From positions 1 to 64,000 of the forward strand of contig NZ_MWLL01000015.1 of NCBI RefSeq assembly GCF_002198675.1: a stretch of DNA of 64,000 nt, read 5' to 3'. A program made the position numbers and the translations under genes. Below are positions 21,841 through 62,058 of this stretch, one piece after another (the stretch's first letter is position 1; each line of letters starts with the position of its first letter). This DNA is from Kineosporia sp. R_H_3. Lineage in GTDB: Bacteria > Actinomycetota > Actinomycetes > Actinomycetales > Kineosporiaceae. Below the pieces are notes generated by a model that saw nothing but the letters and a program-made list of their open reading frames with translations, did not search any database and was not told where the DNA came from.

Positions 21841-21850
21841 CAGGCCACCG

Positions 21851-31838: not shown

Positions 31839-31910
31839 GACGAGCTCTTCCTTCCTGTCGTTGATTCCTGTCAGCTCGACGGGTTGTCGATCTGTTGGTG
31901 GGCATGCGAA

Positions 31911-31951
31911 AGCCGGCTCCACGTCGTCCCGGTTGGGGAAGTGGGCCGGCT
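31911..31951 (-). terminator. Hairpin terminator after the intact zinc-ribbon gene
   Basis: AGCCGGC(T)CCAC pairs with GTGGGCCGGCT with one bulged base. It lies 28 bases beyond the stop at 31979 and upstream of the DUF932 start, so it separates the two transcripts. Confidence 0.6.
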
Positions 31952-31978
31952 GAGGTGCTGCCTAGTGAGGGTTGGCAG

Positions 31979-32698
31979 TCAGGGGGTGGGCAGGCTGAGG
32001 GTGCAGACCTGGCCGCAGGTGGGGCAGACGATCCAGGGGTCGCGGTCACACCCGCAGGCGGTACGTACGTCGTCCCTGTCGTCGTGCTTGCTTTCGGTCG
32101 TTGCGTCGTCGTCTCGGTCGGTGATCACGCCGGTGCAGGTTGGGCAGGTGGTGAACGGGACGTCGAGGTTGGACCCGAACACGGCGGTGAGGGTGGTTGC
32201 CCGGCCCGTCGTCGTGAGCAGTTCGCGTCCGGTTCGCCAGGTCCAGCCGTGCCCGGCGGGGCAGGTGATGACCAGGCTGTCGGCGTCTCGCCAGGCCCAG
32301 CTGTCGCGGCAGCCGTCGGCGTAGATGGTGGGCGGGCGGCCGTCGACGCCGACGATGACGATGCGGCGGCCGTCGATGGTGGCGGACGGCAGCACCCAGA
32401 CGGCGGCGTCGAGCCGGCTCGCCGAGTGCCTGATCAGACTGGACGCCGCCAGACCGTGGTGGCCTTCTCGACACCAGGCGGTGGCCAGTTCGGGCCAAGC
32501 GGTCTCGGTCGGGTCGTTGCGGTTGCCGGGCTGGGTCCGCAGGCCATGACGGCGCGCCCAGGTATGCAGGTCTCGGGTGAGGCCTTCGTGGACGCCGCGG
32601 GTGCGCAGTGCGAGCCAGGCGACGGTGTGGATGACCGGGGACCCGCCGGGTGTCACGCGGACGGCGCCGTGTCGTGGTCGGTGGCTGTCGTCAGGCAT
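31979..32698 (-). CDS. Zinc-ribbon protein of the mobile element, intact copy
   Basis: ATG 32698 overlaps the DUF4192 stop; GTG 32707 is an alternative. The protein is about 239 residues. The N-terminal half is helical and Arg-rich, and the centre has YADGCRDSWAWRDADSLVITCPAGHGWTW. The end has CPTC, CGC, CPTCG and a further C, enough ligands for one or two zinc ribbons. The frameshifted paralogue lies on the other side of the DUF932 gene, so the two arose by duplication. An Asp/His-rich insertion (DRDDDATTESKHDDRDD) between the ligands is unique to this copy. Function unknown. Confidence 0.75.
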   Translation of the reverse strand: MPDDSHRPRHGAVRVTPGGSPVIHTVAWLALRTRGVHEGLTRDLHTWARRHGLRTQPGNRNDPTETAWPELATAWCREGHHGLAASSLIRHSASRLDAAVWVLPSATIDGRRIVIVGVDGRPPTIYADGCRDSWAWRDADSLVITCPAGHGWTWRTGRELLTTTGRATTLTAVFGSNLDVPFTTCPTCTGVITDRDDDATTESKHDDRDDVRTACGCDRDPWIVCPTCGQVCTLSLPTP

Positions 32699-33683
32699 CG
32701 GGGTCACCGCCCATCAGGTCGGCCAGGCCGGGGTGAAGCTCCGCGACGTCCCGGACGGCGACGGACAGCGCCTCACGGAGTTGGCCGGGGTGGACGTGGG
32801 CTTCGGTCAGACCGACGACGAGCTGGGCGAGGGCGTAGTCGGGGTTGTCGCGCAGGGCGTGTTCTGCGGCGAGCCGGGCCAGGACGGCGTTGCCGCGTTG
32901 GTAGGTGGTGGTCGCGAGGAGTGTTGCCGCGGGGGCGATCCACCCGGTGGGTGCGGTGCGGATCAGGTCGGTCCACAGCCACCAGGCTGCGTCGTCGTGC
33001 CAGCCGCTGGCGGCGTCGCGGACGACGACGTCTGCCAAGGCCTGGAGGAGCAGGGAGGCCTCGTCGGGGGTGAGGGGGAGTGGTCCGTCGGTGCGGGCGG
33101 TGTGGGCGTCGTCGATCGCCCGGTAGGCGTCACCGGTGGTCGGTCGCGGCCGTCGTGGTAGGTGGGCGGCGACGTCGTCCACGAGCTCGTCTGGTCCCGG
33201 CTGCAGGTGCGCGTTGAGGCTGTCCCGGGTCGGGGCGGGGGAGCCGCTCGCGGCGATCAACGCCACGTCGACCGGGGTGTCGGAGCTGATGGGTTGGCCG
33301 GGTGGGCAGCAGTCCTGGGTACAAGTCAGGGACCACCAGCGGCCGTCGTCCACGCGCTGCATCTCCAGCACGGGGAGCGGTGAGGTCGCTGCGAGGGTGA
33401 ACACGATGTCGACCTCGTCGGCGGGCATGTAGCCGATGAGCGCGACGGCGTGGGTGTCGGCGTCGGCGAGGGGACCGGCGAGTCGTCGCCACATCTCGGT
33501 CGGGTCGGTGTGGACGGCGGAGGCGTCGACGCGGGCGGTGATCGCGATCCGGCGCTCGTGCAGGCCGAGGACGACGATGCTGCCGGGGTCGGGGTGGAAG
33601 CCGAGCAGGTACGGCACAGCGGTCACCAGATCGCTGGGCTCGCGGAGGCGCACCGTCGTTGCGGTGCTGGCTGGAGTGGACAT
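32691..33683 (-). CDS. DUF4192 family protein
   Basis: ATG 33683 follows AGGAAGG; the long open frame upstream is not coding-like. The 330-residue protein starts with STATTVRLREPSDLVTAVPYLLGFHPDPGSIVVLGL, the signature of DUF4192. This actinobacterial family is found on chromosomes and mobile elements, with no proven function. It also has IAITARVDASA and the late ARLAAEHALRDNPDYALAQLVVGLTEA. It overlaps the zinc-ribbon gene, forming a two-gene transcript ended by the hairpin at 31911-31951. Confidence 0.87.
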   Translation of the reverse strand: MSTPASTATTVRLREPSDLVTAVPYLLGFHPDPGSIVVLGLHERRIAITARVDASAVHTDPTEMWRRLAGPLADADTHAVALIGYMPADEVDIVFTLAATSPLPVLEMQRVDDGRWWSLTCTQDCCPPGQPISSDTPVDVALIAASGSPAPTRDSLNAHLQPGPDELVDDVAAHLPRRPRPTTGDAYRAIDDAHTARTDGPLPLTPDEASLLLQALADVVVRDAASGWHDDAAWWLWTDLIRTAPTGWIAPAATLLATTTYQRGNAVLARLAAEHALRDNPDYALAQLVVGLTEAHVHPGQLREALSVAVRDVAELHPGLADLMGGDPDA

Positions 33684-34039
33684 CTCGGTTGGTTCCTTCC
33701 TGGTTGGGTGCCCGGAGGTGGGCATGCGGATGCGCCGCGTGGGACGACGTCCCACCCGGTCGCGGGTGATGGCAGGCAGCTGCGAATAGCTGAACCGACA
33801 GGGACTGCCGGGTAGGGGAGTGCCCTCGATGCGGGGCGTGAGTGCTCGCGCGGCGGCGAGTGGGGAGCCCGAGGTGGGCGGCGTAGCTGGGTGGCGATGG
33901 GTTGGCTGTTTGCGGAGAGGTCCGGGCCGACCAGCCGAGAGGCGGTGGGCGATGTCGGATCTGCGGCCGCGATGGCCAAGTCCCGGTGGTGCGGGTGGAT
34001 CTTGTGGGGGTTTCTGTTGTCCCTCGACCGTAGGCGATC
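33684..34039. other. Leader region upstream of the DUF4192 gene
   Basis: No gene is visible in these 356 bases. A hairpin GTGGGAC-GAC-GTCCCAC sits at 33739-33755. The 12-mer GGTGGGCATGCG at 33717-33728 also occurs at 31897-31908 upstream of the DUF932 gene, so it may be a shared control element. A promoter for the minus strand is expected here but not clearly read. Confidence 0.45.
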
Positions 34040-34079
34040 GACCCAACCAGGCAAGCTCCCGAGAGCGGCTGGTTGGGTC
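34040..34079 (-). terminator. Strong terminator at the replication-relaxation gene
   Basis: GACCCAACCAG and CTGGTTGGGTC form a perfect 11-base stem with an 18-base loop; the proximal arm overlaps the stop codon at 34078-34080. Overlap of stop and stem would also make termination sensitive to translation. Confidence 0.7.
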
Positions 34080-35139
34080 AGTTGGGTACGTCGTCGACCA
34101 ACTGGCCGTTGGCGTCGAACTGGCCCTCGTTCTCGAACTGGCCCTCGTCGTGGGGTGGGGGCTGGCGGAGCAGGAACAGGGGGTCCTGGTCGGCGATGGG
34201 CGGGCCCGGGTGATAGGGCCCGGGCCGCCCGGGGCTGCTGGGCAGGTCGATCAGGCAGCACCGAGTCGTGGCGCCGTCCAGCAGCCAGACCGGACCGGTC
34301 AGGGCGTCCGGGCTCGTCGCCGCGGCCGTGGGCGTCGTCGTGGCGACGATGACGCCTGGCCGCTGCGGGCGGTGGGCGAGGAGGTCGTGGAGGTGGGCCT
34401 CACGGGCCGACCCAGGGAGGTGGAACAGGACGGGGTAGTCGGGGCCGCCGGCGGCCTGGAGTCGGGCGTAGGGGTCGAGCTTGCCGATCAGGCGGGCCAG
34501 GGGTTCGGTTCCGGTGTCGTACTCCAGCCAGAATCCGACCTGCCGGTCGCCGTCGTGGCCGTGGGTGTCGTTGTCCTCGGCCCAGACGCCGTGTCCGTCG
34601 GGGTGAACTCGCTGTCCGACGGCTGCCGCCGTCCGTGCTGGTCCCCACCAGCGCGCCAGTTGGGTGCCTGGGTGGGTCCGGCTGTAGGCGAGGAGGTCGA
34701 TGAACACCTGGTTGGCGCCGTGGGTGTGGGTCAGGTGCGTACTGGCGGCGATCGCTTCGACCCGGTCCCGCCAGGCTCGTGGTGTGGGTGCGGAGCTGCC
34801 CTGGTGGACGGCGTGGTAGCGGGCCGCGAGCAGTCCGGCGACCCAGTACGTCTGGCGGTGCTGGCCGGTGCGGACGGGGGTGAACCGGTCCACCCAGCGC
34901 AGGTGTCGCAGCCGGTAGAGGCGGGCCCGGGCGGTGGACGGCGAGTCGAACAGGACGGCAGTGAGCTGGCCGGTGGTCAGGGTGCGGTGCTCGACGAGCA
35001 GAGCGGCGATTACGTGGTCGCGGGGCTGGAGCTGGTGGACGACGGCGAGCATTCTGGATGGCTGATTATGATCCCCCGTACGGGAGGGTGCCCTCTTAGG
35101 GGCTTGTCGGGGTCGGCCCGGCGGCGTCGGATCGGGCAT
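34078..35139 (-). CDS. Replication-relaxation family protein
   Basis: Up to 353 residues from 35139; the coding-like part begins by residue 30 (MLAVVHQLQPRDHVIAALLVEHRTLTTGQL), so ATG 35052 is possible. The N-terminal winged helix has LTTGQLTAVLFDSPSTARARLYRLRHLRWVDRF. It is followed by HTHGANQVFIDLLAYSR and a nuclease-like beta region, EDNDTHGHDGDRQVGFWLEYDTGTEPLARLIGKLDPYARL. This is the Replic_Relax (Pfam 13814) layout, found on actinobacterial plasmids and integrative elements and thought to act in mobilisation or replication initiation. The C-terminus has a small repeat (EGQFENEGQFDANGQL). It lies next to a repeat-rich noncoding tract, which could be its target. Confidence 0.83.
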   Translation of the reverse strand: MPDPTPPGRPRQAPKRAPSRTGDHNQPSRMLAVVHQLQPRDHVIAALLVEHRTLTTGQLTAVLFDSPSTARARLYRLRHLRWVDRFTPVRTGQHRQTYWVAGLLAARYHAVHQGSSAPTPRAWRDRVEAIAASTHLTHTHGANQVFIDLLAYSRTHPGTQLARWWGPARTAAAVGQRVHPDGHGVWAEDNDTHGHDGDRQVGFWLEYDTGTEPLARLIGKLDPYARLQAAGGPDYPVLFHLPGSAREAHLHDLLAHRPQRPGVIVATTTPTAAATSPDALTGPVWLLDGATTRCCLIDLPSSPGRPGPYHPGPPIADQDPLFLLRQPPPHDEGQFENEGQFDANGQLVDDVPN

Positions 35140-35168
35140 CGCGGGCCTCCTACCTGCACGAATGCGCC

Positions 35169-35198
35169 AACGGCCGAGCCGTGGACGGCTCGGCCGTT
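35169..35198. terminator. Perfect 12-base stem hairpin
   Basis: AACGGCCGAGCC-GTGGAC-GGCTCGGCCGTT forms a perfect stem with a 6-base loop 30 bases upstream of the replication-relaxation start. It could be a terminator for rightward or leftward readthrough, or part of an origin structure with the repeats that follow. Confidence 0.55.
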
Positions 35199-35207
35199 GC
35201 TGGGGGG

Positions 35208-35251
35208 TTGTCGGGGGTTTCTCGGGGACTTGTCGGGGGTTTGTCGGGCCC
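35208..35251. repeat. Four tandem 11-base repeats (TTGTCGGGGGT type)
   Basis: Units start at 35208, 35219, 35230 and 35241: TTGTCGGGGGT, TTCTCGGGGAC, TTGTCGGGGGT, TTGTCGGGCCC. The first and third are identical. The exact 11-base period puts each copy on the same face of the helix, as in iterons or protein-loading arrays. It lies between the hairpins at 35169 and 35310. Confidence 0.7.
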
Positions 35252-35309
35252 GTCTACGACGACGCGGATCATCTGGCCCGGCAGGCGGAAGGGTGACTGG
35301 CTGAGGGCG

Positions 35310-35358
35310 CACTGCGGCCCCCAACGGTGGGGGTTGAGGCCCCAGGGGGACCGCAGTG
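35310..35358. repeat. Inverted repeat with inner complementary G/C tracts
   Basis: CACTGCGG (35310-35317) and CCGCAGTG (35351-35358) are perfect complements. Between them CCCCCAAC and GTGGGGGTTG can pair further. This could extrude as a complex hairpin. Confidence 0.5.
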
Positions 35359-35421
35359 GCCCCGGCTGGCTTCGGCTCGAACCCTCAACGCTCTCGCCGA
35401 CGCACCGGGCGTCCAGGTCCT

Positions 35422-35460
35422 GGTTGATGCGGGGAGCTTGAGACTCAACCCGCATCAACC
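35422..35460. repeat. Long cruciform-forming inverted repeat
   Basis: GGTTGATGCGGG and CCCGCATCAACC are perfect 12-base complements; the loop contains TTGAG-A-CTCAA, which forms an inner stem. It ends 102 bases before the XRE gene. It may be an operator for that regulator, a nick-site hairpin or a terminator. The rest of 35140-35561 has no gene. Confidence 0.6.
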
Positions 35461-35561
35461 GGACACGTAGGAGGCTATGGTGTTGCGATACGCAGCGTCA
35501 AGATGCAAAACGCAGCAATCACTCACGCGGCGGTGTTGGTCGGACCTGCGCTCGTTCCACC

Positions 35562-35825
35562 ATGTCACTCGTGTCCCAGCCGCTGTCCGCGCTCCTTGCG
35601 CGCAACGTCGCGGCTGAACGCGTGCGCCGACGCTGGACCCAGGCCGAACTCGCCGGCCAGCTCGGCGTCTCCCGTGCCACGGTCGGCGGTTGGGAAGCCG
35701 GCTCTCGCCAGATCGGCGTCGACTGGCTGCTACCGCTGTGCGGCGCCCTCGACGTCCCGCTGGCGAAGTTGCTCGACGGCCTCGACGGCCCCGGCATGCA
35801 GCGACTCGGCATAGACCGTCGTTGA
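35562..35825 (+). CDS. Small XRE-family regulator
   Basis: This 87-residue protein has one helix-turn-helix: NVAAERVRRRWTQAELAGQLGVSRATVGGWEAGSRQIGVDWLLPLCGALDVPLAKLL. That is a standard Cro/C1-type fold and nearly the whole protein. It reads away from the repeat-rich tract and could control the neighbouring mobile-element genes. There is no clear ribosome site close to ATG 35562 (the surrounding bases are CACC), so it may be leaderless or start elsewhere. Confidence 0.8.
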   Translation: MSLVSQPLSALLARNVAAERVRRRWTQAELAGQLGVSRATVGGWEAGSRQIGVDWLLPLCGALDVPLAKLLDGLDGPGMQRLGIDRR

Positions 35826-36309: not shown

Positions 36310-36951
36310 ATGGTCCTCGTCCCGGCTACCGCCGGGTCCCCTGATCGGCTCGCGCTGGCCGCGCGGGTCCGGGTGCTGTCCTGGGTGACGTTGGTGTGGT
36401 TGGCGATCGACGGCGTGGTGGGGATGAGCGCCGGGATCGCCGCGGACTCGGTCGCGTTGATCGGATGGGGCCTGGACTGCGCGATCGAGGCCGCCGCCGC
36501 GCTGGTGATCATCTGGCGGTTCAGTGGCGACCGGATCCACTCGGTCACCGCTGAGCGCCTGGCGCAGAAGGTGGTGGCCGTCTCCTTCATCCTCCTGGTG
36601 CCCTACATCGTGGTCGCCGCCATCGACCACCTGGCCACCGGGAACGCTGCGGGCGGCAGCTGGGTCGGGATCGGGCTGGCCGGCATCGACGCGGCGCTGA
36701 TGCCGATCCTCGGGCGAGCCAAGAAGCGCCTCGGCCGCCAGCTCGGCTCCCACGCCACCAGCGGCGCCGGCACCCAGAACATCCTTTGCGCCTACCTGTC
36801 GATCGCGGTCCTGATCGGCCTGGTCGCAAACGCCGCCCTGGGCTGGTGGCGGGCCGACCCCATCGTCGCCCTGGTCGTGGCCGCAGCCTGCCTGCAGGCA
36901 GGGTGGAACACCTGGCGCGGCAACACCTGCGACGACGAGATCAGCTGCTAG
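36310..36951 (+). CDS. Cation-efflux-like membrane transporter (short form)
   Basis: This 213-residue protein starts at ATG 36310. It has about six membrane segments. GMSAGIAADSVALIGWGLDCAIEAAAALVIIWRF resembles the second and third helices of cation diffusion facilitators, with a conserved Asp pair region. IGIGLAGIDAALMPILGRAKKRLGRQLGSHAT and LGWWRADPIVALVVAAACLQAGWNTWRG correspond to later helices. The cytoplasmic C-terminal metal-sensing domain of full CDF proteins is absent. A Cys-containing tail (NTCDDEISC) may bind metal. It is paired with the divergent ArsR gene, as is the related gene at 46.4 kb. Confidence 0.82.
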   Translation: MVLVPATAGSPDRLALAARVRVLSWVTLVWLAIDGVVGMSAGIAADSVALIGWGLDCAIEAAAALVIIWRFSGDRIHSVTAERLAQKVVAVSFILLVPYIVVAAIDHLATGNAAGGSWVGIGLAGIDAALMPILGRAKKRLGRQLGSHATSGAGTQNILCAYLSIAVLIGLVANAALGWWRADPIVALVVAAACLQAGWNTWRGNTCDDEISC

Positions 36952-37261
36952 CCGGACGAACACGGTGACAGCGTCGTTAGGGCCGCGTGTGTCCGTGGAC
37001 CCGCGATCGGTCAGCTCGTGCACCTCGGGCGGTCGCTGATGGAGGCTGCCTCGCTCATAGCGCCCTCGGTGGCCTTCGTAGTATCGGCGGCGGGTGATGT
37101 GTCTCTCCCGTGGGGCTCGGCAGCAGCGACGAGGCCGCGCGCTGACCCAGCAAGTTGACCCTGACCCGCCCGGGGTCTCGTGCCGAAGCGGGATGCGGAG
37201 TCGTGCAGAACCGCTTGGGTCGGCCACCCAGCGAGGATGGAGTTCTGGTCCTTCTGGGTGA
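36952..37261. other. Gap without a recognisable gene
   Basis: These 310 bases separate two transporter genes that converge. Short open frames exist but none resembles a protein. No strong hairpin was found. Confidence 0.4.
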
Positions 37262-37894
37262 TCATTCGATCCTTTCACCGGCCAGGGCTCTGGCGGCCAG
37301 TCGCTCTTCTTCACTGACCTCCCACACTTCCCATCCAGCGCGCAGCGCCAGAGCGATGATGACGCAGCCGAGGATGAGGTCGGGCCAGCCGGACCGCACC
37401 CAGATGGTGCAGATGCCCATGGCGATGATGGCGAGGTTGACCAGAACGTCGTTACGCGCTGACAGGAACGCGGCAGCGCTCAGCGAACCGCCGTGATGTC
37501 GAACGCGGGCCAAGAGCCAGGCGCTGGTGCCGTTCACCGCGATCGCTCCGAGCGATGCGACCACCAGCGGCACCACGTCGGGGATGCGGGGGGCTGTGAG
37601 TCGGTGGATCGCTTCCCATCCCGCCAGGACGGCGGGAGCAAGGATCACCAGTGTCATCACCTTCCCCAGGCGTGACCGGCGCGCAAGCGGCCACCCCAGT
37701 GCGATGAAGATCAGCAGGTTGATCGAGGTGTCCTCGAGGAAGTCGACACTGTCGGCGAGCAGAGACACCGATCCGGCCATCAACGCGACGCTGAACTCGA
37801 CGAAGAAGTACCCGAAGTTCAAGGCGGCCACGATCAGCACTGCGCGCCGCAGTCTGACGGCGTCAAGCTGCGCCATCCCGGCCGGTTGTTCCAT
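37262..37894 (-). CDS. Cation-efflux-like transporter (short CDF type)
   Basis: ATG 37894 is preferred; GTG 37900 is two codons upstream. About 210 residues with six helices. The motif NFGYFFVEFSVALMAGSVSLLADSVDFLEDTSINLL matches the CDF signature with ADSxDxxxD in helix 2. SAAAFLSARNDVLVNLAIIAMGICTIWVRSGWPDLILG corresponds to helix 5, with N/D ligands. This indicates proton-coupled export of Zn, Co, Cd or similar ions. The C-terminal domain is reduced to EVWEVSEEERLAARAL. TACATT near 37905 could be a -10, so the mRNA may be leaderless. Confidence 0.85.
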   Translation of the reverse strand: MEQPAGMAQLDAVRLRRAVLIVAALNFGYFFVEFSVALMAGSVSLLADSVDFLEDTSINLLIFIALGWPLARRSRLGKVMTLVILAPAVLAGWEAIHRLTAPRIPDVVPLVVASLGAIAVNGTSAWLLARVRHHGGSLSAAAFLSARNDVLVNLAIIAMGICTIWVRSGWPDLILGCVIIALALRAGWEVWEVSEEERLAARALAGERIE

Positions 37895-38006
37895 GACCAC
37901 GAATGTATCGGCGTCGATCTCGTCGATCAGCAGTCGACTGCCTGGCTGCCATGTGGGTCGCGGCGAGGAGATCGTCGTGCTGAGCCGTCGTCACCCAAGG
38001 CTTGTG

Positions 38007-38768
38007 TCAGGTGAGGTCGAGCAGTTCACCGACCTCGTGGACGGCCGCGGGGTCGGTGCTGAGCAGCAGCATGGTGTGGGTGTCCGGTCCGCACAGGACG
38101 GTGATGTCGTCCGACTGCAGGCTCCAGGCGGTCTCAGTGCCCGGGATCTCGCGGGACTGGTCGGTTTCGGGGAAGGGCCGGCTGCTGCGGTAGACGGCGA
38201 GTCTGGACCCTGAGTTGGCGCGGTAGGCGTACATCGTCACCTCCGCCTGGTCTTGACGGCCGGTTCCGGCCGCGACCAGCCGCAGACCGAGCGCTGTCAG
38301 GTCCGGGGCCGGCTCGGACGGCACCGCGGTCCCGGGGAGCCGATCGTCTCGGAAGCTGGCCAGCGCGGCATCGAGCGCTGCGGTGGTCGCGATCGCTGCA
38401 GTTGGACCTTGCTCGGAAGTCGGCCGCCACGGCTGCCACACCGAGGCCGCCATGGCGAGGGCCAGTCCGGTCGCCACCACCGTCAGAATCAGCCTTGGGC
38501 GAGGCCGCCGGGCTAGTGGCAGGTCCGCGGCCCGCTGACCTGCTGCGGGATCGGCGGCGGCCGCCGCGACGCTTGCTCGTAGGTGCTCCCGGAGCCCTGC
38601 CGGTGCGGCCTGGTGAGCACTTTCGGCCAGTTCCCGGCCGCGTCGGGCCAGGCTGACCTCGCGCCAGCAGGCCTCGCACGTCAGGAGGTGCTGGTCGTGG
38701 CGGGCGCGGGCCCGGGCCGGCATGTCGGTCAGGTAGGCAGCGGCCAGCGCCTCTGGGTCAGGGCCCAT
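38007..38768 (-). CDS. Anti-sigma factor with zinc-finger and one membrane helix
   Basis: ATG 38768 overlaps the sigma-factor stop. The protein has about 253 residues. The N-terminal segment ARHDQHLLTCEACWREVSLARRGRELA carries HxxxCxxC (zf-HC2), the ZAS-type sigma-binding domain. One membrane helix (LILTVVATGLALAMAASVW, near 95-113) follows. The outer domain (about 140 residues) has a late Cys (ITVLCGPDTH) that could sense redox or metal stress. It would hold the sigma factor at the membrane until a signal arrives. Confidence 0.87.
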   Translation of the reverse strand: MGPDPEALAAAYLTDMPARARARHDQHLLTCEACWREVSLARRGRELAESAHQAAPAGLREHLRASVAAAAADPAAGQRAADLPLARRPRPRLILTVVATGLALAMAASVWQPWRPTSEQGPTAAIATTAALDAALASFRDDRLPGTAVPSEPAPDLTALGLRLVAAGTGRQDQAEVTMYAYRANSGSRLAVYRSSRPFPETDQSREIPGTETAWSLQSDDITVLCGPDTHTMLLLSTDPAAVHEVGELLDLT

Positions 38769-39306
38769 CCGACACCTCCCGGGGCTGTCGCTGTTCGGCT
38801 CGCTCATCGGTCAGGATCAACGCCAGTGTCTTGCGGCCGCGGTGCACGCGGGCCAGGACCGTCCCGCGGGGTGCGGCAGTGATGGTGGCGACCTGGGCCG
38901 CGGTGAACCCGCAGATGTCCATCAGGGTGATCGCGATCCGCTGGACCTCGGGCAGAGTCCACAGGGCCGACTCGATCCGGTCGTTGCCCAGTCGCTCCAG
39001 CGCCGCGTCGGCGGTGTCGACGGCCGAGGGCAGGTCGGGGGCGGGGCGGTCGTCCAGCAGTGTGTTGTGGCGGGCGTGCCTTCGCAGCGCGTCGCGGCCC
39101 ACATTGAGGCAGATGGTGGCCAGCCAGGCCCCGACATCGTCGGGCCGCCGTCGGCCCCAGGCGGCGTACCCCCGTAGGTAGGTCTCCTGCACGATGTCCG
39201 GCGCGTCCTGAGGATGCGGGGCCAGCCTGCGGGCAAGGGCGTGGACCACGTCGGCATGCACCAACGCGGCCTGCAGGAAGTCCTCGCCCTGCCCCGAGCG
39301 GTTCAT
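38758..39306 (-). CDS. ECF-type RNA polymerase sigma factor
   Basis: This 182-residue protein starts at ATG 39306. Region 2 is seen in LARRLAPHPQDAPDIVQETYLRGYAAWGRRRPDDVGAWLATICLNVGRD. Region 4 is LWTLPEVQRIAITLMDICGFTAAQVATITAAPRGTVLARVHRGRKTLALIL. The layout and overlap with an anti-sigma gene are those of a stress-responsive ECF pair. Upstream bases 39307-39360 contain GACGTC twice, which may be part of an autoregulated promoter. Its targets probably include the divergent membrane-protein gene at 39532. Confidence 0.92.
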   Translation of the reverse strand: MNRSGQGEDFLQAALVHADVVHALARRLAPHPQDAPDIVQETYLRGYAAWGRRRPDDVGAWLATICLNVGRDALRRHARHNTLLDDRPAPDLPSAVDTADAALERLGNDRIESALWTLPEVQRIAITLMDICGFTAAQVATITAAPRGTVLARVHRGRKTLALILTDERAEQRQPREVSDGP

Positions 39307-39531
39307 CTGCGCGTTTCACCACCCCTCACTGACAGGGACGTCTCGGACGTCACCGTGATTGCAGCACGCCCCGATCAGACCTGATGCAACCCCGATGCAA
39401 TCAGCCCAGCACCGCCGGCGTCCCTACCAGCGACGACCCTCACCGAAGCCGCCGATGGCGAACCGCGACCTGCTCCATCCGAGTGAGCACGGGGGAGTGC
39501 GTCTGGCGACCACCGACCCGAAGGACTCGAC

Positions 39532-40179: not shown

Positions 40180-40291
40180 CGCGGAACCTCCGCGCCGCGC
40201 CCGCTCCGACCCGATTCCGGCGCCCACCTCCAGCGGTCCATCGCCGGCCCGGTCAGCCCTGGGTTCAGTCACCCTTGGCGGGTCGGCAGGT

Positions 40292-40714
40292 TCAGGTCGG
40301 GTCGGCTGTGGGGTCGGTGCGTAGTTCGCAGCGGCCGGCGCTGCAGCATTCGAGGACGGCTTGAAGGTCGTTCTGGACGGTGGTCAGTTCGGCCAGCCGG
40401 GCGCGGGTGCGGTCCAGGACTTCCTCCAGCCGCCATCTCTCGGACTGGCACGTGGCGTCCGGGCGGTCGTGCGCGCGCAGCGCGTCGGCGACCTCGTCCA
40501 GCGTCATGCCCAGGGCCTGCAGTCTGCGGGCCAGGGCGATCGTGGCGACCGCCGCCGGGGTGTAGAGCCGGTACCCGGAGGGGAGCCGGCCTGCGGGTGT
40601 GAGCAGCCCGCGTCGTTCGTAGTAGCGGACGGTGTCGATGCTGACCTCGGCCTGGCGGGCCACGGTGCCGATCCTCAGCAGCCGTCCACCGACATGCTCT
40701 TGACTCTGGACCAT
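40292..40714 (-). CDS. MerR-family metal-responsive regulator
   Basis: ATG 40714 lies in the centre of the operator; ATG 40735 is an alternative. About 140 residues. The N-terminal helix-turn-helix LLRIGTVARQAEVSIDTVRYYERRGLLTPAGRLPSGYRLYTPAAVATIALARRLQALGMTLDEV is typical. The long dimer helix ends in AVLECCSAGRCEL, a CC...C metal site; an additional Cys (DATCQSERW) corresponds to the first Cys of MerR. The divergent promoter with a 19-20 base spacer and a perfect dyad is described at 40700. It probably activates the gene at 40771. Confidence 0.88.
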   Translation of the reverse strand: MVQSQEHVGGRLLRIGTVARQAEVSIDTVRYYERRGLLTPAGRLPSGYRLYTPAAVATIALARRLQALGMTLDEVADALRAHDRPDATCQSERWRLEEVLDRTRARLAELTTVQNDLQAVLECCSAGRCELRTDPTADPT

Positions 40715-54650: not shown

Positions 54651-57110
54651 TCAACTGTCCGACACCTTCGCAGGCGCGAGCGGCATCGGGGTGGGACGGC
54701 TGGTGTCCGCAGCTGTGCGTTGAGCGGGCTGAAGCTCGTTCGTGCGGAGCGTGAATGCGGGGTTCTCCCGGCCGTTGGTGACGAGCCGGGTGGCAGCGGT
54801 GTAGGCGTCGAGGTGGGCGAGGTCATGTTCGTCCAGTTCGGGGAGGGTGTGCCGCGCGAGGGCGTGGGCATCTTCGGGCGAGCAGGTGAAGTAGATCTTG
54901 TTGCGGGCGTTGGCGGAGATCGCCAGCTGGGTGTCGCGGGGGAGCTGGGCGAGGTGCTGATGGGCCAGGACGAGCGAGAGATGGTAGCCGCGGGCTTCGG
55001 CGAGCATGTCGTTGACGGAGCCGGCGAGGTTGAGGATGTTGTGGGCCTCGTCGATCACGACGGTGGCGTCCCGGCGGCCAGGCTCCGACTGTCGGGTTCG
55101 GGCGGTGGCGGCCTGCCAGACCGACGCGAAGATCATGGAGCCGAGCAGCCGGGAAGTCTCTTCGCCGAGTTGGCCTTTTGGCAGGCGCGCGATGAGGATG
55201 CCGCCGCGGTCGAGGATGCGGGTCATGTCGACGCTGGATCTTGGTGTCCCGATGGTGGCGCGGACGAAGTCGCGCAACAGGAAGGCCCGGAGCCGGGCCA
55301 GGACGGGGCCGGTAACTTGGGCCCGCAGCGCGGGTGGCGTGGCTTCGAACCATTCCCAGAAGCCTTTGAGGCCTTCGGGGTCGGTCAGGTCGACGGTGAA
55401 CGGGGCACGGAACTGCCTGTTGTTCAACAGCGGCGGCACGGTGAGCAGAGTGGGGTCGGGGTGGCGCATCACGGTCAGGCAGGCCACGCGCATGACGTCG
55501 TCGATGCGAGGTCCCCAGTGGCGTTGGAAGATCGCGGCGAAGATCGAGACGATGTTGTCGACGATGAGGTCTTCGTCGCCGCCGGGGCGTAGCTCGAGCG
55601 GGTTCAGAGTGGCGCTCTTGGTGGGCTGATCGGGGTCGATGACCACGAGCCGCTCGAGGGCGTGGTCGGGGATGCGGTCTTGGACGTCGCGGGCGAGGTC
55701 GCCCTTGGGGTCGATGAGGACGACGCCTCGGCCGGCGCGGATGTCGTCGAGGACGAGGTGGGCGAGCAAGGTGGATTTGCCGACGCCGGTCGAACCGAGG
55801 ACGTGCAGGTGGTGGCGGGCATCGACAACCGGCAGGGCGACGGTGTGCCCGCCGACGGCGGCCCGACCGAGGACCTTGGTGCCGCGACCACCGGCCGGCA
55901 CACCGATGGGCGCCGGGACGCTCTTCGCACGGGCCCGCTCAAGCCCAGACACTGCGAGGTCTGTCGGGAGAGCGGCGAGAGCAGTGAATTCGGCCGCATC
56001 GACGAGGAACCCTCGGTGAAGTCGCCGGTCAGCGAGCACACGGTCTGCGTGAGTCATGGGAAGCGCCCGGAACCTGTTGCTGCCCGCGTAGACGGCATGC
56101 GCGGCTGCGATTGCGTGGGCGAGCGTGATCAGGCGTCGCGCTATCGCGTCGGACTGTCTCTGTCGGCGCCGCAGTGGACTATCCGGTGCCGATGTTGTGC
56201 CGTCAACCAAAGCAGCGGTGTGGGCGACGGCGTACCGCAGGGCGATCTCCCAGTGCGGACCGTTGGCTTTGGCCAGGACCTCCGTGTTGTCGTGACGCTG
56301 CATGGGGTCGGCAGCTGTGCTCCGACCTGCAGCTGTGGTAGTTCGGGGCGGGTGGCTGAGCAGGCCCGTCAGGGTGCCGGCGAGCAACCCGGCAGCCGCC
56401 TCGGGGAGGCCGCGACTCGTGCGTCGTCCGCTCGCGATGGCTGCAGCGGAGGCGCGCAGGCGGGCGATCTGGCGGGGGCTGGCCGGTCGGGCCAGGACCT
56501 GGACGCAGGCGGCCTCGGTGCCTCGCAGGTGGGAGGCGGCACCGAGTAGGGCGCGCTTTGGGTCGCTCTGGTGGTCGGTGGCGATCGGGTAGCAGTGCGC
56601 CCGAGCGGGGACAAGGGCCCCGCCCGTCGCTCGTGCCGACCGTTGACCCCGCGGGCCTCGCGGACTGTCGCTGGCGGGGATGGTGGGGAGGGGCGTGACG
56701 GCGGGGTCGATGCGGGTGGTGGCGCCGGGCCAGGCGGCGACGACTGCGGCGGCGATCGGTGCGGCGGGGACGGTGCCGGGGACCCAGAGCAGGATCTGCA
56801 GGTGGCGGCCTGTCCACCGGTATTCGAGGCTGACGTGAGGGGCCCCGGTCCGCAGGCGGCGCCGTCGGGACGGGATGAGCAGTCCGTGCAGGTTCGCCCA
56901 GAAGGCTGCGGCACCATCCGCTTCGACGGTCGCGGGTGGGGTGATGAGGACCTGTTGTGCGCCGGTGAGGAGTCGTTGGTGCCGTCGCGTTCGGATGGCG
57001 CGCCCGGCGAGCTGCCAGCCCCCAGCTCCGCAGATGGCCGTTGTGAGGACGGCCGCGAGCGTGAGGGCGTGGGCAGCGATCAGTCCGGCGGGGGTGATCG
57101 GCGGTGTCAC
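54651..57110 (-). CDS. VirD4/TraG-type conjugative coupling ATPase
   Basis: This 819-residue protein has an N-terminal membrane helix (LTLAAVLTTAICGAGGWQLAG). A long non-catalytic region comes next, then the ATPase domain from about 420. HHLHVLGSTGVGKSTLLAHL is Walker A (K near 443), GRGVVLIDPKGDLARDV follows, then RRDATVVIDEAHNILNL (Walker B) and LSLVLAHQHLAQL. This is the layout of TraD/TraG/VirD4 and of type IV coupling proteins in actinobacterial integrative elements. It would feed DNA to the transfer channel. It overlaps the VirB4 gene by four bases and is the last gene of the operon. Confidence 0.9.
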   Translation of the reverse strand: MTPPITPAGLIAAHALTLAAVLTTAICGAGGWQLAGRAIRTRRHQRLLTGAQQVLITPPATVEADGAAAFWANLHGLLIPSRRRRLRTGAPHVSLEYRWTGRHLQILLWVPGTVPAAPIAAAVVAAWPGATTRIDPAVTPLPTIPASDSPRGPRGQRSARATGGALVPARAHCYPIATDHQSDPKRALLGAASHLRGTEAACVQVLARPASPRQIARLRASAAAIASGRRTSRGLPEAAAGLLAGTLTGLLSHPPRTTTAAGRSTAADPMQRHDNTEVLAKANGPHWEIALRYAVAHTAALVDGTTSAPDSPLRRRQRQSDAIARRLITLAHAIAAAHAVYAGSNRFRALPMTHADRVLADRRLHRGFLVDAAEFTALAALPTDLAVSGLERARAKSVPAPIGVPAGGRGTKVLGRAAVGGHTVALPVVDARHHLHVLGSTGVGKSTLLAHLVLDDIRAGRGVVLIDPKGDLARDVQDRIPDHALERLVVIDPDQPTKSATLNPLELRPGGDEDLIVDNIVSIFAAIFQRHWGPRIDDVMRVACLTVMRHPDPTLLTVPPLLNNRQFRAPFTVDLTDPEGLKGFWEWFEATPPALRAQVTGPVLARLRAFLLRDFVRATIGTPRSSVDMTRILDRGGILIARLPKGQLGEETSRLLGSMIFASVWQAATARTRQSEPGRRDATVVIDEAHNILNLAGSVNDMLAEARGYHLSLVLAHQHLAQLPRDTQLAISANARNKIYFTCSPEDAHALARHTLPELDEHDLAHLDAYTAATRLVTNGRENPAFTLRTNELQPAQRTAADTSRPTPMPLAPAKVSDS

Positions 57111-59080
57111 GTCGCCGCCGCGGTGTCGTCGTCCGGCTCGCTGCTGAGGACGGCGGTGACGGTGGCATGTTCGGTGGGGGAGGCGATGGCGAGGTAGCTG
57201 ACGCGGGATGCGCCGGCGACGAGCAGAGCTTCACCGCGGGGTGCTGCGAGTAGCAGTCGGGCTTCGCCGGTCGTGAGGTGGAAGACGTCGGCGACGGCGT
57301 CGATGGCTTGTGGTGCCTGCCGCATGAGGATCTGGGTGGCGGCGTTGGCGATGACGACCTGGCCGAGGTCGGAGCTGAGCAGGTCGGCTGCGTCCTGGGT
57401 GACTACGGTGATCCCGGCGTTGCGTTTGCGGGCTGACTTGGACATCCGGGCCAGGAACCGGGCGCCGTCGGGTTCGCGCATCAGCGTCCAGGCCTCGTCG
57501 ACCACGACCAGTCGGCGTTGTGGTCCCAATCGGAGGTCTGACGCCTGCCGGGGTGGTAGGTATCGGACGCCTGGTTGGCCAACCCGTCGGGTGGCCCGAC
57601 TCACCGAGTTGGCCAACCGGGCTTGCCGGTGCGCGCTGGTTGGACCCTTTGACGGGTCTGGCGGGGATGGTTGGTCGACGTCGCGCCAGATGGCGTCGAG
57701 GGCGAGCAGCATGCCGGCGGCGCGTAGTTCGTCGGGGAGGTGGCGGGTGGACCAGACGACGAGGTGCCCGCTGGGGTTGGTGGTGGTGGGTCCGGCGAAC
57801 AGGTCCTTGAAGGCGCCCTCGACCCAGGGTGACAGTCGGGCGGCCAGGGTCGCGGCGGCCGGGTTGGTCTCGCCGATCCGGGTCAAGGCGGCGGCGAGGT
57901 CGGCGAGCACGGGCGCCGGCCTGGTCCAGGTCGACGGGTCGTGGCTGATGCCGGCGGCGGTGTAGGTGGCGGTGATCGCGGCGTCGAGTGCGGCTCGTTC
58001 CTGCGGTGGCGGCTGTTCGCCGAGCAGGACGCCGATCAGGGTGTGCAGGAACAGCGCTCGCCGGGTCAATGCATCGCGCGGGGTGGGCCCGCTGGGAATG
58101 TCGAACGGATTGACCCGGACCTCGGCAGCGCCGAGGCGGACCACGCGTCCGTCGACGGCTGCGGCCAGGGCGGTGTACTCGTCCTCGGGGTCAATCACGG
58201 CGACGTGGACGCCGTCGTACAGCTGGCGCAGCACATCGAGCTTGACGAGGTAGGACTTGCCGGCGCCGGAGCGGGCCAGGACGACCGCGTTGTGGTTGTC
58301 CTGGGCCCAGCGGTCCCACCAGACGATCCCGCCGGAGGCGGTGTTCACTCCGTAGAGGACGCCCCCGGGTGTGGCGTCCTCGCCGGGCAGTGGCCCGGGT
58401 AGATCGGGGCAGGCCAACGGGAACGCGGCTGCGAGAGCGTCGGTGTCCATCACCCGCCGCTGGTTCAGACCGTCGTGGCCGAGGGGCAGGGTGGAGCACC
58501 ACCCTGGGAGTTGGCGCCAGGTTGCGGGGTGGGTGTCGAGCAGGACGGAGGCGGCTGCCGCGCGGACCTCGGCAACGGCGTCCGCCAGGAGCGCCCGGGT
58601 GGGGGCGTGAACGGTCAGGTAGAGCCCGACCCGGAACAGGCGTGCTTGCCCTCTGGCCAACCGGTCGGCGAGGGCGGCGGCGTCATCCGCGGCGGCCTCG
58701 ACGAGGGGGTCGTCGAGTCGGCCGCGGTCAGCGTCGATGCGGCGGGAGGACTCCAATCGAGCCCGTTGCCGCCGCAGCCTGCCCGTGGCGACCTCGGTCG
58801 GTAGCGGGTCGATGTGGACCGCGACGTCCAACCTGCCGGCCCAGGCCAGCAGTGGCTCGAGCCAAGCGATGCCGACTTCGGCCGGATAGCCGCAGACGAT
58901 CAGGGTGGCCGCGTAGCCGTCGCCGACCCGCACGTAGCCACCGGCTGTGGTCACCGCTGACGGGCCGATGACCTCCGCGAGGGTTGGGCCGTCGGCCCGG
59001 CCCGCGAGCAGGTCGCTGCGGCGGTGACCGCGGCGTCGTCCGTCTCGCCTTGCCCGGTCGGAAGCCCGCGAAGCTCTCAC
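57107..59080 (-). CDS. VirB4-type conjugation ATPase
   Basis: GTG 59080 overlaps the PrgI-like stop (GTGA); 657 residues. The N-terminal half has GPSAVTTAGGYVRVGDGYAATLIVCGYPAEVGIAWLEPLL, seen in SCO6880-like and VirB4-like proteins. Walker A is HNAVVLARSGAGKSYLVKLDVLRQL (K near 273). VIDPEDEYTALA follows, and the C-terminal half has RLVVVDEAWTLMREPDGARFLARMSKSARKRNAGITVVTQDAADLL. It probably drives assembly of the type IV secretion channel. The gene contains two copies of the GGTTGGCCAACC palindrome, one shortened. Confidence 0.9.
   Translation of the reverse strand: MRASRASDRARRDGRRRGHRRSDLLAGRADGPTLAEVIGPSAVTTAGGYVRVGDGYAATLIVCGYPAEVGIAWLEPLLAWAGRLDVAVHIDPLPTEVATGRLRRQRARLESSRRIDADRGRLDDPLVEAAADDAAALADRLARGQARLFRVGLYLTVHAPTRALLADAVAEVRAAAASVLLDTHPATWRQLPGWCSTLPLGHDGLNQRRVMDTDALAAAFPLACPDLPGPLPGEDATPGGVLYGVNTASGGIVWWDRWAQDNHNAVVLARSGAGKSYLVKLDVLRQLYDGVHVAVIDPEDEYTALAAAVDGRVVRLGAAEVRVNPFDIPSGPTPRDALTRRALFLHTLIGVLLGEQPPPQERAALDAAITATYTAAGISHDPSTWTRPAPVLADLAAALTRIGETNPAAATLAARLSPWVEGAFKDLFAGPTTTNPSGHLVVWSTRHLPDELRAAGMLLALDAIWRDVDQPSPPDPSKGPTSAHRQARLANSVSRATRRVGQPGVRYLPPRQASDLRLGPQRRLVVVDEAWTLMREPDGARFLARMSKSARKRNAGITVVTQDAADLLSSDLGQVVIANAATQILMRQAPQAIDAVADVFHLTTGEARLLLAAPRGEALLVAGASRVSYLAIASPTEHATVTAVLSSEPDDDTAAAT
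57573..57584. repeat. Palindrome GGTTGGCCAACC, copy 1
   Basis: A perfect 12-base palindrome inside the VirB4 gene. An 11-base version (GTTGGCCAACC) follows at 57608-57618. The same sequence occurs at 62045 and 62914. Confidence 0.6.
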
Positions 59081-60132
59081 CGCCGCCCCCAGGAGGCTGG
59101 GCGTCCGGCGGGCTCGTCAGCGAGGTTGTCGTCCAGGCTGAGATCGTCGATGGCGCTGTCGGTGTACTCGTCCCAGGCGGTGGTGGTGGCTGTGACCGGG
59201 ATGCCGGGGGCGGTACGGGGGCTGGTGGCATCGGTGGACCCGTACGGGTCGGCTGCCGCGGAGAGGACGGCGGTAACCTCGCCGGCGCTGAGGACCCGGC
59301 AGCGCACTCCGACAGCGGACAGAGCATCAGCGGTCGCGGCAGCTCGGCGTTGCACGTCCGATCCCACGGTGCCGGCTCGGCTGACGCTGGGGCTGGTTAC
59401 GGCGATGGTTACGGTTCGCTGGAGCGGGTCGTGGGACTCCATCAAGTCGAGCAGGAACCAGGCGTAGTCGACGGCAGCACCGGCCAGGGCCGGTGAGGTC
59501 AGGTCGTGGGCCTGCTCGACGACGCGTTCAGCGTGAGTGCCGAGGTCGAGTCGCGTCGTCGACAGGACGATCTGCGCCGGGCTGGTCAAGGCGTTGAGCC
59601 ACCGTGCGAAGGCGCCGACCTGGGCGGCCTGTTCCGCCGAGCTGTTCAGGTTCGCGGTGACCGTGGTCGAGGCGACCAACGCGACTGCGGTCGCTCCCGT
59701 GACGAGCGTGCCGTCGTCGTCGATCGCCGAGGTCGGCAGCCGCAACATACCCAACCGGCCCGTCTCCGCCGTGGGGTTCGTGGTCGTCAGGGGCGCCCAG
59801 TCCGGCGTCCCTGAGGATGGATGGACTGGCAGAAGCCGGCGCGGGCCGCGGCGATGGGTGAGCGCAGCGAGCAGCCAGGCATCGAGGCTGACCCCGTCAC
59901 GTCGTCCCATGGCGACGGCGGCGGCCAACGCGGCAACCGGACTGGTCGTAGCGACCAGGACTGGAATGGGCACCCGGCCGGCGAGGACTTGCCAGGCGAG
60001 GTAGATCGGGACCACGGCGACGGCGAGGACCGCGACCTGCCGGGTGGTCAACCCGAGCATGATCCGGTCGGGGGCATCCAGGTCGGCCGGGATCCGGGCC
60101 TGCACGGGCAACTCATCGACGACGCGGTTCAT
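59077..60132 (-). CDS. PrgI-like membrane protein of the transfer system
   Basis: This 351-residue protein starts at ATG 60132, overlapping the VirB6-like gene. ARIPADLDAPDRIMLGLTTRQVAVLAVAVVPIYLAWQVLA, a second helix (PIPVLVATTSPVAALAAAVAMG) and GVSLDAWLLAALTHRRGPRRLLP are the PrgI signature; PrgI is a VirB3-like channel subunit. Further on it has a soluble domain of about 220 residues, as in actinobacterial SCO6880-type proteins. Its position directly before VirB4 is typical. Confidence 0.85.
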   Translation of the reverse strand: MNRVVDELPVQARIPADLDAPDRIMLGLTTRQVAVLAVAVVPIYLAWQVLAGRVPIPVLVATTSPVAALAAAVAMGRRDGVSLDAWLLAALTHRRGPRRLLPVHPSSGTPDWAPLTTTNPTAETGRLGMLRLPTSAIDDDGTLVTGATAVALVASTTVTANLNSSAEQAAQVGAFARWLNALTSPAQIVLSTTRLDLGTHAERVVEQAHDLTSPALAGAAVDYAWFLLDLMESHDPLQRTVTIAVTSPSVSRAGTVGSDVQRRAAATADALSAVGVRCRVLSAGEVTAVLSAAADPYGSTDATSPRTAPGIPVTATTTAWDEYTDSAIDDLSLDDNLADEPAGRPASWGRR

Positions 60133-61504
60133 CGCGCCTCCTCCCAGTGGATGGACGTTCAGGTGCGGCAGGAGCTGGCCGGCGCGGGGCTGTCCACGGG
60201 ACAGGACGCGAAGGCGAGGTCGAGATCACCGGTGGGGATGCGGCCGGAGGGATCGCGGGTTGTCGGGAGCGGTCTGGCCTGCGCTCGCGGGTCGACGCCC
60301 CTGCCGTGGGCCGAGGGCTCGCTGCGGTGACAGGTGTCGCGGACGTGGCCGGAACACCGGAGGGTGGCGGAGCCGACGTTGCGGAGGGGTTGGCGGACCT
60401 CGGGCGAGCGGGTGCTGGGCCTGAGCCCGTTCCTGAACTTGGGTGGGCTGGGGCTCGACCTGGTCCCGATGGTGGGCGCCGAGGAGGAACGCCGCCGTGT
60501 GGCGGCCTGCCGGGGCCACCGCCGCGGCGAGGGCTTGGTCCGCCAGTCCCGCCGGAGCCGCGGCTTGGCCCCGGGGGCCGCGACTTGGCGAGTCGTCCGG
60601 CGCCGAAGGCGGTGCGCAGTCCGGTGCCGAGGCCGCGGGTGAGCTGCTGGACGACGACGAAGCGAAGGATGGTGCCGACCAGATTCGGACGCCCGCCCGG
60701 GGTGAGTTGGCGGCGCACCAGCGCGGGGATGCGCACCGTGGCGTACAGCAGGACGGCGACGATAAATAGGTTGAACAGCCCGGTCGGGTCCGACGGCATG
60801 CCGTAGCTGGGCAGGTTCGCGGCCGGGTCGAGGAAGATCGCCAGGCTGGTGTTGAGTGCCACGGCTTGCAGGACGACGGTGATCGACAGGCCGCCCATGG
60901 TGCGCCACCAGGCCTGGGCGATCGGTTCGGTCCAGGGCAGGGCGTGGCAGGCCAGGGCGGCGGGGGCGACGCCGACGGCGACGATGAGTGCGACGAATCG
61001 GGCGATCCAGCCGACCAGTAGCAACGCCAAGAGCACGTCGATGGTCAGCCCGATCAGGGTTACCAGCAATGCGGAAGCTGGGTTCGTCAAGGCGCCGGTC
61101 ACCACGCGCAGCAACGCAGCCAGGGAGCGTTCGGAGGCGATGCCCTGCCCGGTCAGCGCCTCGACGAGCGCGTTCGCCGTGGTAGTGATGGCCTGGCAGA
61201 TCGGTGGCGCGAAGTTCGCCGCGACCAGTCCGATCACCATTCGGGGCGCCAACTCGGCCAGCCCGTATCTGGACTGGACGGTGTCACGCGTCATCACGAC
61301 GATGCCCACGGTCATGATGACGACGACGAAGCCGGTGTTCACGATCGCCAGTGCCCGGCCCGAGACGGCGGCGACTTGAGGGAGGCCGGTGACGTCGGGT
61401 AGGTGGAACAGAGTGGCGACCAGCAGGGCCCAGGTCTGGTTCAGGGTGTCGCGGGTGAAGGCCAGCAGCCAGGCGGTGGCCTGATCGAACAACCAGCCCA
61501 TCAT
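60113..61504 (-). CDS. VirB6/TrbL-like channel protein
   Basis: ATG 61504 is preferred because it shares a base with the stop of the pilin gene; 463 residues. About seven helices occupy residues 1-290, including MGWLFDQATAWLLAFTRDTLNQTW, LAIVNTGFVVVIMTVGIVVMTRD and VLLALLLVGWIARFVALIVAVGVAPAALACHALPWTEPIAQAW. The layout matches TrbL/VirB6. The last about 150 residues are very rich in Pro, Arg, Ser and Gly (RRGGGPGRPPHGGVPPRRP) and probably disordered and cytoplasmic. Confidence 0.83.
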   Translation of the reverse strand: MMGWLFDQATAWLLAFTRDTLNQTWALLVATLFHLPDVTGLPQVAAVSGRALAIVNTGFVVVIMTVGIVVMTRDTVQSRYGLAELAPRMVIGLVAANFAPPICQAITTTANALVEALTGQGIASERSLAALLRVVTGALTNPASALLVTLIGLTIDVLLALLLVGWIARFVALIVAVGVAPAALACHALPWTEPIAQAWWRTMGGLSITVVLQAVALNTSLAIFLDPAANLPSYGMPSDPTGLFNLFIVAVLLYATVRIPALVRRQLTPGGRPNLVGTILRFVVVQQLTRGLGTGLRTAFGAGRLAKSRPPGPSRGSGGTGGPSPRRGGGPGRPPHGGVPPRRPPSGPGRAPAHPSSGTGSGPAPARPRSANPSATSAPPPSGVPATSATPVTAASPRPTAGASTRERRPDRSRQPAIPPAASPPVISTSPSRPVPWTAPRRPAPAAPERPSTGRRRDEPRRR

Positions 61505-61770
61505 CAGACCCCCAGGATCTGCTTCAGAACGGTGAGTACCACCGGCGCCAGGATCGCCAACCCGTATCCGATGGCTGCCGACCGCAGGGCGCTCTTGGCT
61601 CGCTCGACCTCGGACGGGTTGCCGTCGGCGGCCATATAACGCAGCCCGCCCAGGGTCAGGAAGAAGGTGGCGAGGGCAGCGAGAATCCCGACCAGCCACC
61701 CCGTCGCGTTGTTGATCACGGTGGGTAGGTCCGCGGCCGCCGCGAGCATCAAGACCGCTGTCGTATGCAC
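61504..61770 (-). CDS. Small VirB2/TrbC-like pilin-type membrane protein
   Basis: GTG 61770 follows GAGGAGG by 10 bases. The frame extends upstream but without a plausible sequence. The 88-residue product has a short leader and two hydrophobic helices: TGWLVGILAALATFFLTLGGLRYMAADG and AAIGYGLAILAPVVLTVLKQILGV, with SEVERAKSALRSA between them. This matches TrbC/VirB2-like pilins and related channel subunits in actinobacterial type IV systems. It heads the coupled channel operon. Confidence 0.8.
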   Translation of the reverse strand: MHTTAVLMLAAAADLPTVINNATGWLVGILAALATFFLTLGGLRYMAADGNPSEVERAKSALRSAAIGYGLAILAPVVLTVLKQILGV

Positions 61771-62058
61771 CGGGACGTCACCTCCTCGTCGAGCTCGCAG
61801 AATCCGTAAGTCGGGTGTGGGGATGCCACCGCGGGCGTGGACGGCGGTCGAGCAGAACCCGTCCCTCCCTTCGAGGCACGTCAGCGGTTCTGATGCGGTC
61901 CGAGGCGTGAACACGGTCACCGACTCGACCGCCGTCGCCGGCTCCGCGGTGGCATCCAGAACCAGAGGCACACACCTGGTTCCGCCCACCCACGGCCCGG
62001 CAACGCCACCCAACCGGACGACGTCGAGGCGCCCGTGAGTCAACGGTTGGCCAACCAG
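61771..62058. other. Leader region before the transfer operon
   Basis: These 288 bases contain no gene I would defend, though a frame stays open on the minus strand. The palindrome GGTTGGCCAACC lies at 62045-62056, just at the end of the upstream gene, and a promoter for the transfer operon is likely here. Confidence 0.4.
62045..62056. repeat. Palindrome GGTTGGCCAACC, copy 3
   Basis: This perfect 12-base palindrome lies 275 bases upstream of the pilin-like start and 3 bases downstream of the neighbouring gene's end. It may be an operator for transfer genes. Confidence 0.55.

Follow-up and report, generated by a model that had tools for sequence, protein, structure and literature searches.

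We analyzed a window of 64,000 nucleotides (bases 1 to 64,000 of a contig of 67,784 bases), in which the start of a relaxase gene and the tract upstream of it (positions 35073-35245) very probably constitute the origin of transfer (oriT) of a conjugative island of the type IV secretion system (T4SS) type. As judged from the DNA itself, this candidate oriT contains four 11-bp direct repeats (iterons), which are best read as its relaxase-binding half, and a conserved element termed here the CGAC-hairpin, which represents the putative nic region. At the iteron end, the oriT reading is well supported by comparative anatomy, by the family of the relaxase and by the presence of conjugation genes. 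Our confidence is slightly lowered by the weaker spacing of the two elements outside the family and by the presence of a second module: the tract most likely consists of two modules side by side, an oriT part and a control region of an XRE-family gene (Table 1).

Table 1. Coordinates of the features of the candidate oriT, of the adjacent XRE-linked region and of the conjugation genes in the window.
Feature	Position	Strand	Basis
MOBC-type (Replic_Relax) relaxase gene; ATG 35137-35139	34078..35139	-	PF13814
AGGAGG ribosome-binding site of relaxase	35146..35151	-	sequence
Putative nic region, within relaxase ORF	35073..35112	-	conserved in relatives; spacing
CCCCGAC of putative nic region	35106-35112	-	
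Hairpin 1 of putative nic region	35090-35103	-	
Hairpin 2 of putative nic region	~35073-35086	-	
Inverted repeat with perfect 15-bp arms, lying between relaxase start and iterons	35168..35199	.	
Four 11-bp iterons, putative relaxase-binding site	35202..35245	-	
First hairpin of putative XRE leader, 18-bp arms at 83%	35305..35363	+	
Block GGCCCCGG-N37-CACCGGGCGT, also present at two XRE-linked loci	35358..35412	+	
Second hairpin of putative XRE leader, perfect 12-bp arms	35422..35460	+	
Two TGC(G/A)A(T/A)ACGCA sites 20 bp apart, operator-like	35484..35516	+	
XRE-family regulator gene	35562..35825	+	HTH_3 6.8e-10
TraG/VirD4-like coupling protein	54651..57110	-	
VirB4-like ATPase	57107..59080	-	
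PrgI-family protein	59077..60132	-	
T4SS pilin	61504..62043	-	PF18895

Relaxase, conjugation, cargo and defence genes are found between tRNA-Ala (2834-2908) and cobQ (near contig base 66601). A relaxase, a coupling protein and a VirB4 homologue are encoded in the same element, as in integrative and conjugative elements (ICEs) of the T4SS type, and the island presumably still moves. We use the term island on the basis of gene content, since no integrase was found among the window proteins scanned and the tRNA-Ala end has no second copy on the contig that could form an attachment repeat. The element is likely chromosomal because the contig ends in cobQ. In the window, the coupling-protein gene is located about 19.5 kb from the relaxase gene. 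In 59 of 85 relatives, the gene immediately upstream of the relaxase encodes a homologue of the coupling protein, and the tract therefore usually corresponds to the gap between both genes.

Several other regions of the window were annotated. A defence-like block (3088-12258) encodes a PDC-S28 helicase identified by PADLOC (1028.7 bits), a HATPase protein, a type IV restriction-like helicase and a DNA cytosine methylase. The genes at 16824-22716 form a row resembling Tad/Flp pilus genes: a SAF-domain protein and a T2SSE ATPase were identified by Pfam, and the other members of the row are a guess from reading the ORFs. Metal- and sulfur-related cargo was observed at 36310-53140 (cation efflux, TauE, an SBF transporter, rhodanese and ArsR-type regulators). 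Finally, the genes downstream of the relaxase on the same strand (30849-34046) encode a DUF4192 protein, an unnamed protein and a DUF932/TIGR03299 phage-plasmid-like protein.

The relaxase matches PF13814 with high significance (E-value 2e-42, 145.9 bits; cut-off 25.3) and is the only Replic_Relax match of the genome. The available text of one study indicates that the CONJscan server assigns PF13814 proteins to MobC (PMC5357655), and our assignment to MOBC combines the PF13814 match with this correspondence; a contrary label exists in the available part of another paper, where a table types a Replic_Relax element as MOBT (PMC11104534). Five residues (P152, D153, E178, D180 and K192, numbered on a 325-residue fragment, with 28 to be added for positions in the 353-residue ORF) were invariant in 48/48 sequences, i.e., the window protein and 47 relatives, and these P-D, E-x-D and K positions fit a catalytic core of the PD-(D/E)XK type. 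The predicted structure (pLDDT 92.3) presents an N-terminal winged helix formed mostly by residues 1-88, which resembles MarR/ArsR repressors, with fold matches of Z 9.2-10.6 among the 50 matches listed. Because winged helices filled the whole-protein fold search, the C-terminal domain was predicted separately (pLDDT 94.3) and its best matches were restriction endonucleases: PaqCI (Z 8.5, 136 aligned residues, 4.5 A), BsaWI (Z 7.6), BstEII (7.1), FokI (6.8) and the nickase Nt.BspD6I (6.6). PaqCI is the only match that reaches Z 8 and the Foldseek E-values are weak (3.5e-3 at best), so that the nuclease fold is supportive and not decisive. Relatives of the relaxase were searched in genome contigs, where the single protein gave no matches and an alignment (A1) provided the best 80 of 258 loci. 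The search of plasmids returned three weak matches and the search of phages returned no matches.

The four iteron units read, on the minus strand, GACAAACCCCC, GACAAGTCCCC, GAGAAACCCCC and GACAACCCCCC. The sequence-only reading had described four tandem repeats of 11 bases next to a replication-relaxation gene and near an XRE gene, and both genes are indeed present. The repeats are likewise confirmed: their period-11 score is 26/33 and exceeds those of all 1000 dinucleotide shuffles (mean 15.5, maximum 22). Among 579 segments of 330 nt taken from the 64 kb, only three reached a score of 26 at period 11 and all of them overlap the tract; when any period from 7 to 24 was allowed, three more segments also reached this score (33880-34430, coding). 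The same reading had placed the repeats in exact helical phase, which overstates the case: 11 bp is merely near the helical repeat and the relatives mostly use units of 12 bp.

We then considered the 330 nt upstream of the relaxase homologues (106 loci, reduced to 86 by de-duplication and by requiring 330 nt of sequence). Conservation of the repeats beside homologous genes had been put forward as a check, and phased arrays do recur there: period-12 arrays scoring at least 22/30 were found in 18/86 loci, relative to 1/85 further upstream and 0/86 within the gene. Arrays of period 24, the harmonic, occurred in 10 loci (1 and 0 in the respective controls), and arrays of period 11 in 2/86 loci (1/85 and 0/86 in these controls). 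Overall, 20/86 loci passed the threshold for a strong array. The unit itself varies by lineage, as exemplified by TCCAACGAGNNN, GGAGCGTTCCGT and CGGCGTCTCNNN. As in oriTs of the MOBC type, tandem direct repeats are thus located near the relaxase gene, and the protein binding these iterons would presumably be the relaxase.

The second element of the candidate oriT was recognized by comparing relatives. In the eight family loci examined, a small hairpin follows CGA(C/A), either at the relaxase or upstream of it, and a second hairpin formed by a C-run and a G-run is usually present. The window copy reads CCCCGACAAGCCCCTAAGAGGGCACCCTCCCGTACGGGGG (minus strand, 35073-35112). The exact pattern CGACTATCTCN{0,12}GGGAGAT yielded five matches in 98 genomes and none for the reversed control; four of these matches adjoin Replic_Relax genes and the fifth is an orphan tract described below (L028), while the diverged copy of the window does not match the pattern. 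The loose motif CGACWA was found in 13/80 loci, three of them with a hairpin. Because MAFFT misplaces the hairpin loop, we relied on shuffles and arm swaps rather than on a covariance model or a count of pairs. Across 15 motif sequences (nine family loci and six chosen by eye), the perfect stems sum to 88 bp, whereas half-shuffles give 43.0 +- 3.3 and arm swaps 64.7 +- 4.3 (0/2000 in both tests). Individually, the hairpins are modest: hairpin 1 of the window has 4 bp and a stability similar to shuffles (z -0.10), and seven other motif sequences folded alone have z-scores of -0.11 to -1.89.

A motif rule was also applied to 97 out-of-family loci, with duplicates retained and with the rule written after 43 of these loci had been read: the motif was found upstream in 20/97 loci in the sense orientation and in 3/97 in antisense, relative to 9/89 (sense) and 2/89 further upstream and to 2/97 and 5/97 in the gene. 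Among the 86 de-duplicated loci, 26 pass the rule, the window passing with a relaxed stem of 4 bp and one family member (L014) failing. The failure of the other 60 relatives indicates that the consensus is limited to certain lineages or that the rule is too strict.

In the window and in six relatives (L013, L060, L062, L064, L065 and L068), the motif lies inside the relaxase ORF and begins 21 or 30 nt downstream of a start codon that has a perfect ribosome-binding site. Nicking would consequently fall within the relaxase gene, and peptide conservation may contribute to the similarity. It is even conceivable, albeit improbable, that the similarity reflects a conserved N-terminal peptide of the relaxase and no DNA site at all; against this explanation, in-frame stops put the motif outside the ORF in four loci (L016, L015, L020 and L136), it also lies outside the relaxase ORF in the orphan tract, and the stems exceed those obtained after arm swaps. 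We retain the CGAC-hairpin as the putative nic region, in which the exact nick and strand are presumptive.

The distance between the two elements is also informative. In the window, 92 nt separate the last iteron from the CGAC-hairpin. In the 26/86 loci with a motif found by rule, the best score for iterons located 75-104 nt ahead of the motif averaged 17.5, relative to 13.9 at random positions (0/1000) and to 14.8 for permuted positions (0/1000). This profile involved no hand-picking, in contrast to an earlier profile of 20/27 loci for which one position was set by hand. The peak in spacing is less pronounced outside the family: the score averaged 15.9 at 75-89 nt and 11.9-14.2 in most other spacing bins, and 4/18 loci scored at least 19/30.

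One tract with this organization stands apart from any relaxase gene. This orphan tract (L028/L139, near position 69099 of contig G012:C67) presents 12-bp iterons, a gap of 100 nt and a CGAC-hairpin, and over 277 bp it shares 76% identity with the relaxase-side tract of the same genome; a search of the 19 kb around it gave no match to a relaxase. The tract could be a hitch-hiking element or a relic. Retention of the iterons and of the motif without the relaxase would be expected if the site is acted on in trans, and it bears on the possibility that the iterons are simply an operator at which the relaxase or the XRE protein represses the relaxase promoter, with no oriT involved. The position of the iterons upstream of the relaxase gene, the MarR/ArsR-like winged helix and the proximity of the XRE gene would all suit an operator. 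However, the orphan tract retains both elements in the absence of a relaxase gene, and a second element at a fixed distance inside the ORF would be unusual for it, making this explanation unlikely. Relaxases often autoregulate, and the roles of operator and oriT can coexist.

The sequence-only reading had offered a replication origin as an alternative to the oriT, and the tract could in principle serve as the origin of a plasmid or of the excised island. The Pfam name of the relaxase family refers to replication-relaxation and iterons are typical of plasmid origins, but no replication initiator was found among the window proteins scanned, the element is chromosomal as judged from the cobQ end of the contig, and the arrays track MOBC relaxase genes. 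We consider this option highly improbable and favor an origin of transfer.

The inverted repeats of the tract present a different picture. Three had been announced, two of them with perfect 12-base stems; all three exist, and the stem is 12 bp in the repeat at 35422-35460 and 15 bp in the one at 35168-35199. Their fold z-scores as DNA relative to shuffles are -7.8 (35168-35199), -6.9 (35422-35460) and -4.5 (35305-35363). The palindrome at 35168-35199 had no blastn counterpart in 134 loci, and it presents no T-run and no terminator call. Perfect repeats of at least 12 bp with a loop of at most 30 nt were found within 450 nt upstream of only 4/86 relaxase homologues, including that of the window.

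The two other inverted repeats (35305-35460) probably form a module of their own that belongs to the XRE gene, a structured leader or a small RNA, a conclusion held with modest confidence. Across 297 genomes of the order, the XRE protein was found in 17 places in 12 genomes. In three of these loci (the window, G006:C120 and G012:C34), the roughly 260 nt preceding the XRE gene contain a strong hairpin and, after it, GGCCCCGG-N36/37-CACCGGGCGT; the remaining loci lack this arrangement. An alternative is that these inverted repeats are part of the oriT, as nic hairpins or as a start site for the second strand, without any XRE leader. They do adjoin the iterons, and oriTs often contain inverted repeats according to the available text of PMC6414798, yet the hairpin and block precede an XRE gene at G006:C120 and G012:C34, and searches covering 18 kb and 3.2 kb there, respectively, detected no relaxase. 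We regard this alternative as rather unlikely and favor an XRE-linked module.

Taken alone, the pattern of the block is no more frequent in the family than expected by chance (8 places and 8 for the reversed controls, 13 genomes), and in the phylum it was found in 2/296 genomes, the window among them; hence, the linkage to the XRE gene, rather than the pattern, constitutes the evidence. For the three XRE-linked sequences, the RNA-fold z-scores are -4.56, -1.94 and -2.29, and RNAalifold identified two-sided changes in 12/45 pairs. The covariation term is unfavorable (+2.55), and the RNA reading is thus only suggestive. Possible structured leaders or small RNAs before an XRE gene were noted in three family loci, at 35300-35560 in the window, at 1502-1672 in L005 and at 1830-2010 in L159. 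A similarity search with the whole tract in 58 genomes returned short matches, of which that of L005 is real: its counterpart of 35422-35460 has different stem bases and keeps the GAGCT start of the loop. The match in L004, inside an ispE-like gene, was attributed to chance. The search of plasmids with the XRE protein returned no matches, the Rfam scan detected nothing near threshold, and no promoter or terminator was found by scanning. These results redraw the interval 35160-35465 that had been delimited as a candidate oriT: it includes the iterons, for which the proposal is well supported, as well as the XRE-linked repeats, which probably do not belong to the oriT, and the conserved unit extends beyond it to about 35073.

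Based on this anatomy, the phased iterons (35202-35245) would be the docking site for the winged helix of the relaxase, which is encoded just downstream. The restriction-nuclease-like domain of the enzyme would nick at the CGAC-hairpin (35073-35109) or next to it, about 92 nt from the iterons. The nicked strand would then be handed to the TraG-like coupling protein. The closest parallel is the oriT/TraX system of pAD1 from Enterococcus faecalis. The available text of PMC12857230 describes TraX as a MOBC relaxase with a winged helix and a restriction-endonuclease-like active site, whose binding site consists of five direct repeats located about 70-120 bp away from nic; it names TraX as one experimentally studied MOBC prototype, and it places MOBC relaxases in the restriction-endonuclease superfamily, with no covalent DNA intermediate seen. 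As far as this text describes, the domain layout of the relaxase and the distance of the direct repeats are similar in the window, the 92 nt and the clustered spacing being measured here to the conserved CGAC-hairpin, i.e., to a putative nic. In contrast to pAD1, which we compared by layout and not by nic sequence, the window harbors an actinobacterial island with four G+C-rich units of 11 bp (12 bp in most relatives), and its putative nic region falls within the relaxase gene.

Other known systems share some of these features. MobC of CloDF13, also of the MOBC type, is listed together with TraX as a restriction-endonuclease type in the available text of PMC12857230, a likeness by description. 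Streptococcal class 8 integrative and mobilizable elements (IMEs) combine a PF13814/MobC relaxase with a VirD4-type coupling protein, as far as the available text of PMC5357655 indicates; these elements borrow the mating pore of another element, whereas the window island encodes VirB4, PrgI and a pilin. Like TraB-type actinomycete ICEs (AICEs), the window element is a conjugative island of actinobacteria, but it possesses T4SS genes and a relaxase, whereas AICEs transfer double-stranded DNA without a genuine T4SS according to the available text of PMC3218068. In the literature searched, seen in part and mostly outside subscription journals, we found no description of an oriT of an actinobacterial MOBC element.

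We tentatively propose, at somewhat less than even confidence, a blueprint for the oriT of actinobacterial MOBC elements, in which the 11-12 bp phase and the distance of about 75-105 nt to the CGAC-hairpin are maintained, whereas the sequence of the iterons can vary freely. Lineage-specific winged helices would recognize this geometry, and the nick would fall in the first relaxase codons in several lineages. If so, each transfer would separate the relaxase gene from its promoter. A recognizable actinobacterial cis-signature would also provide many natural substrates for studies of MOBC nicking and strand handover. With it, the oriTs of islands from antibiotic-producing genera could be located, and hitch-hiking DNA of the kind seen in the orphan tract could be detected.
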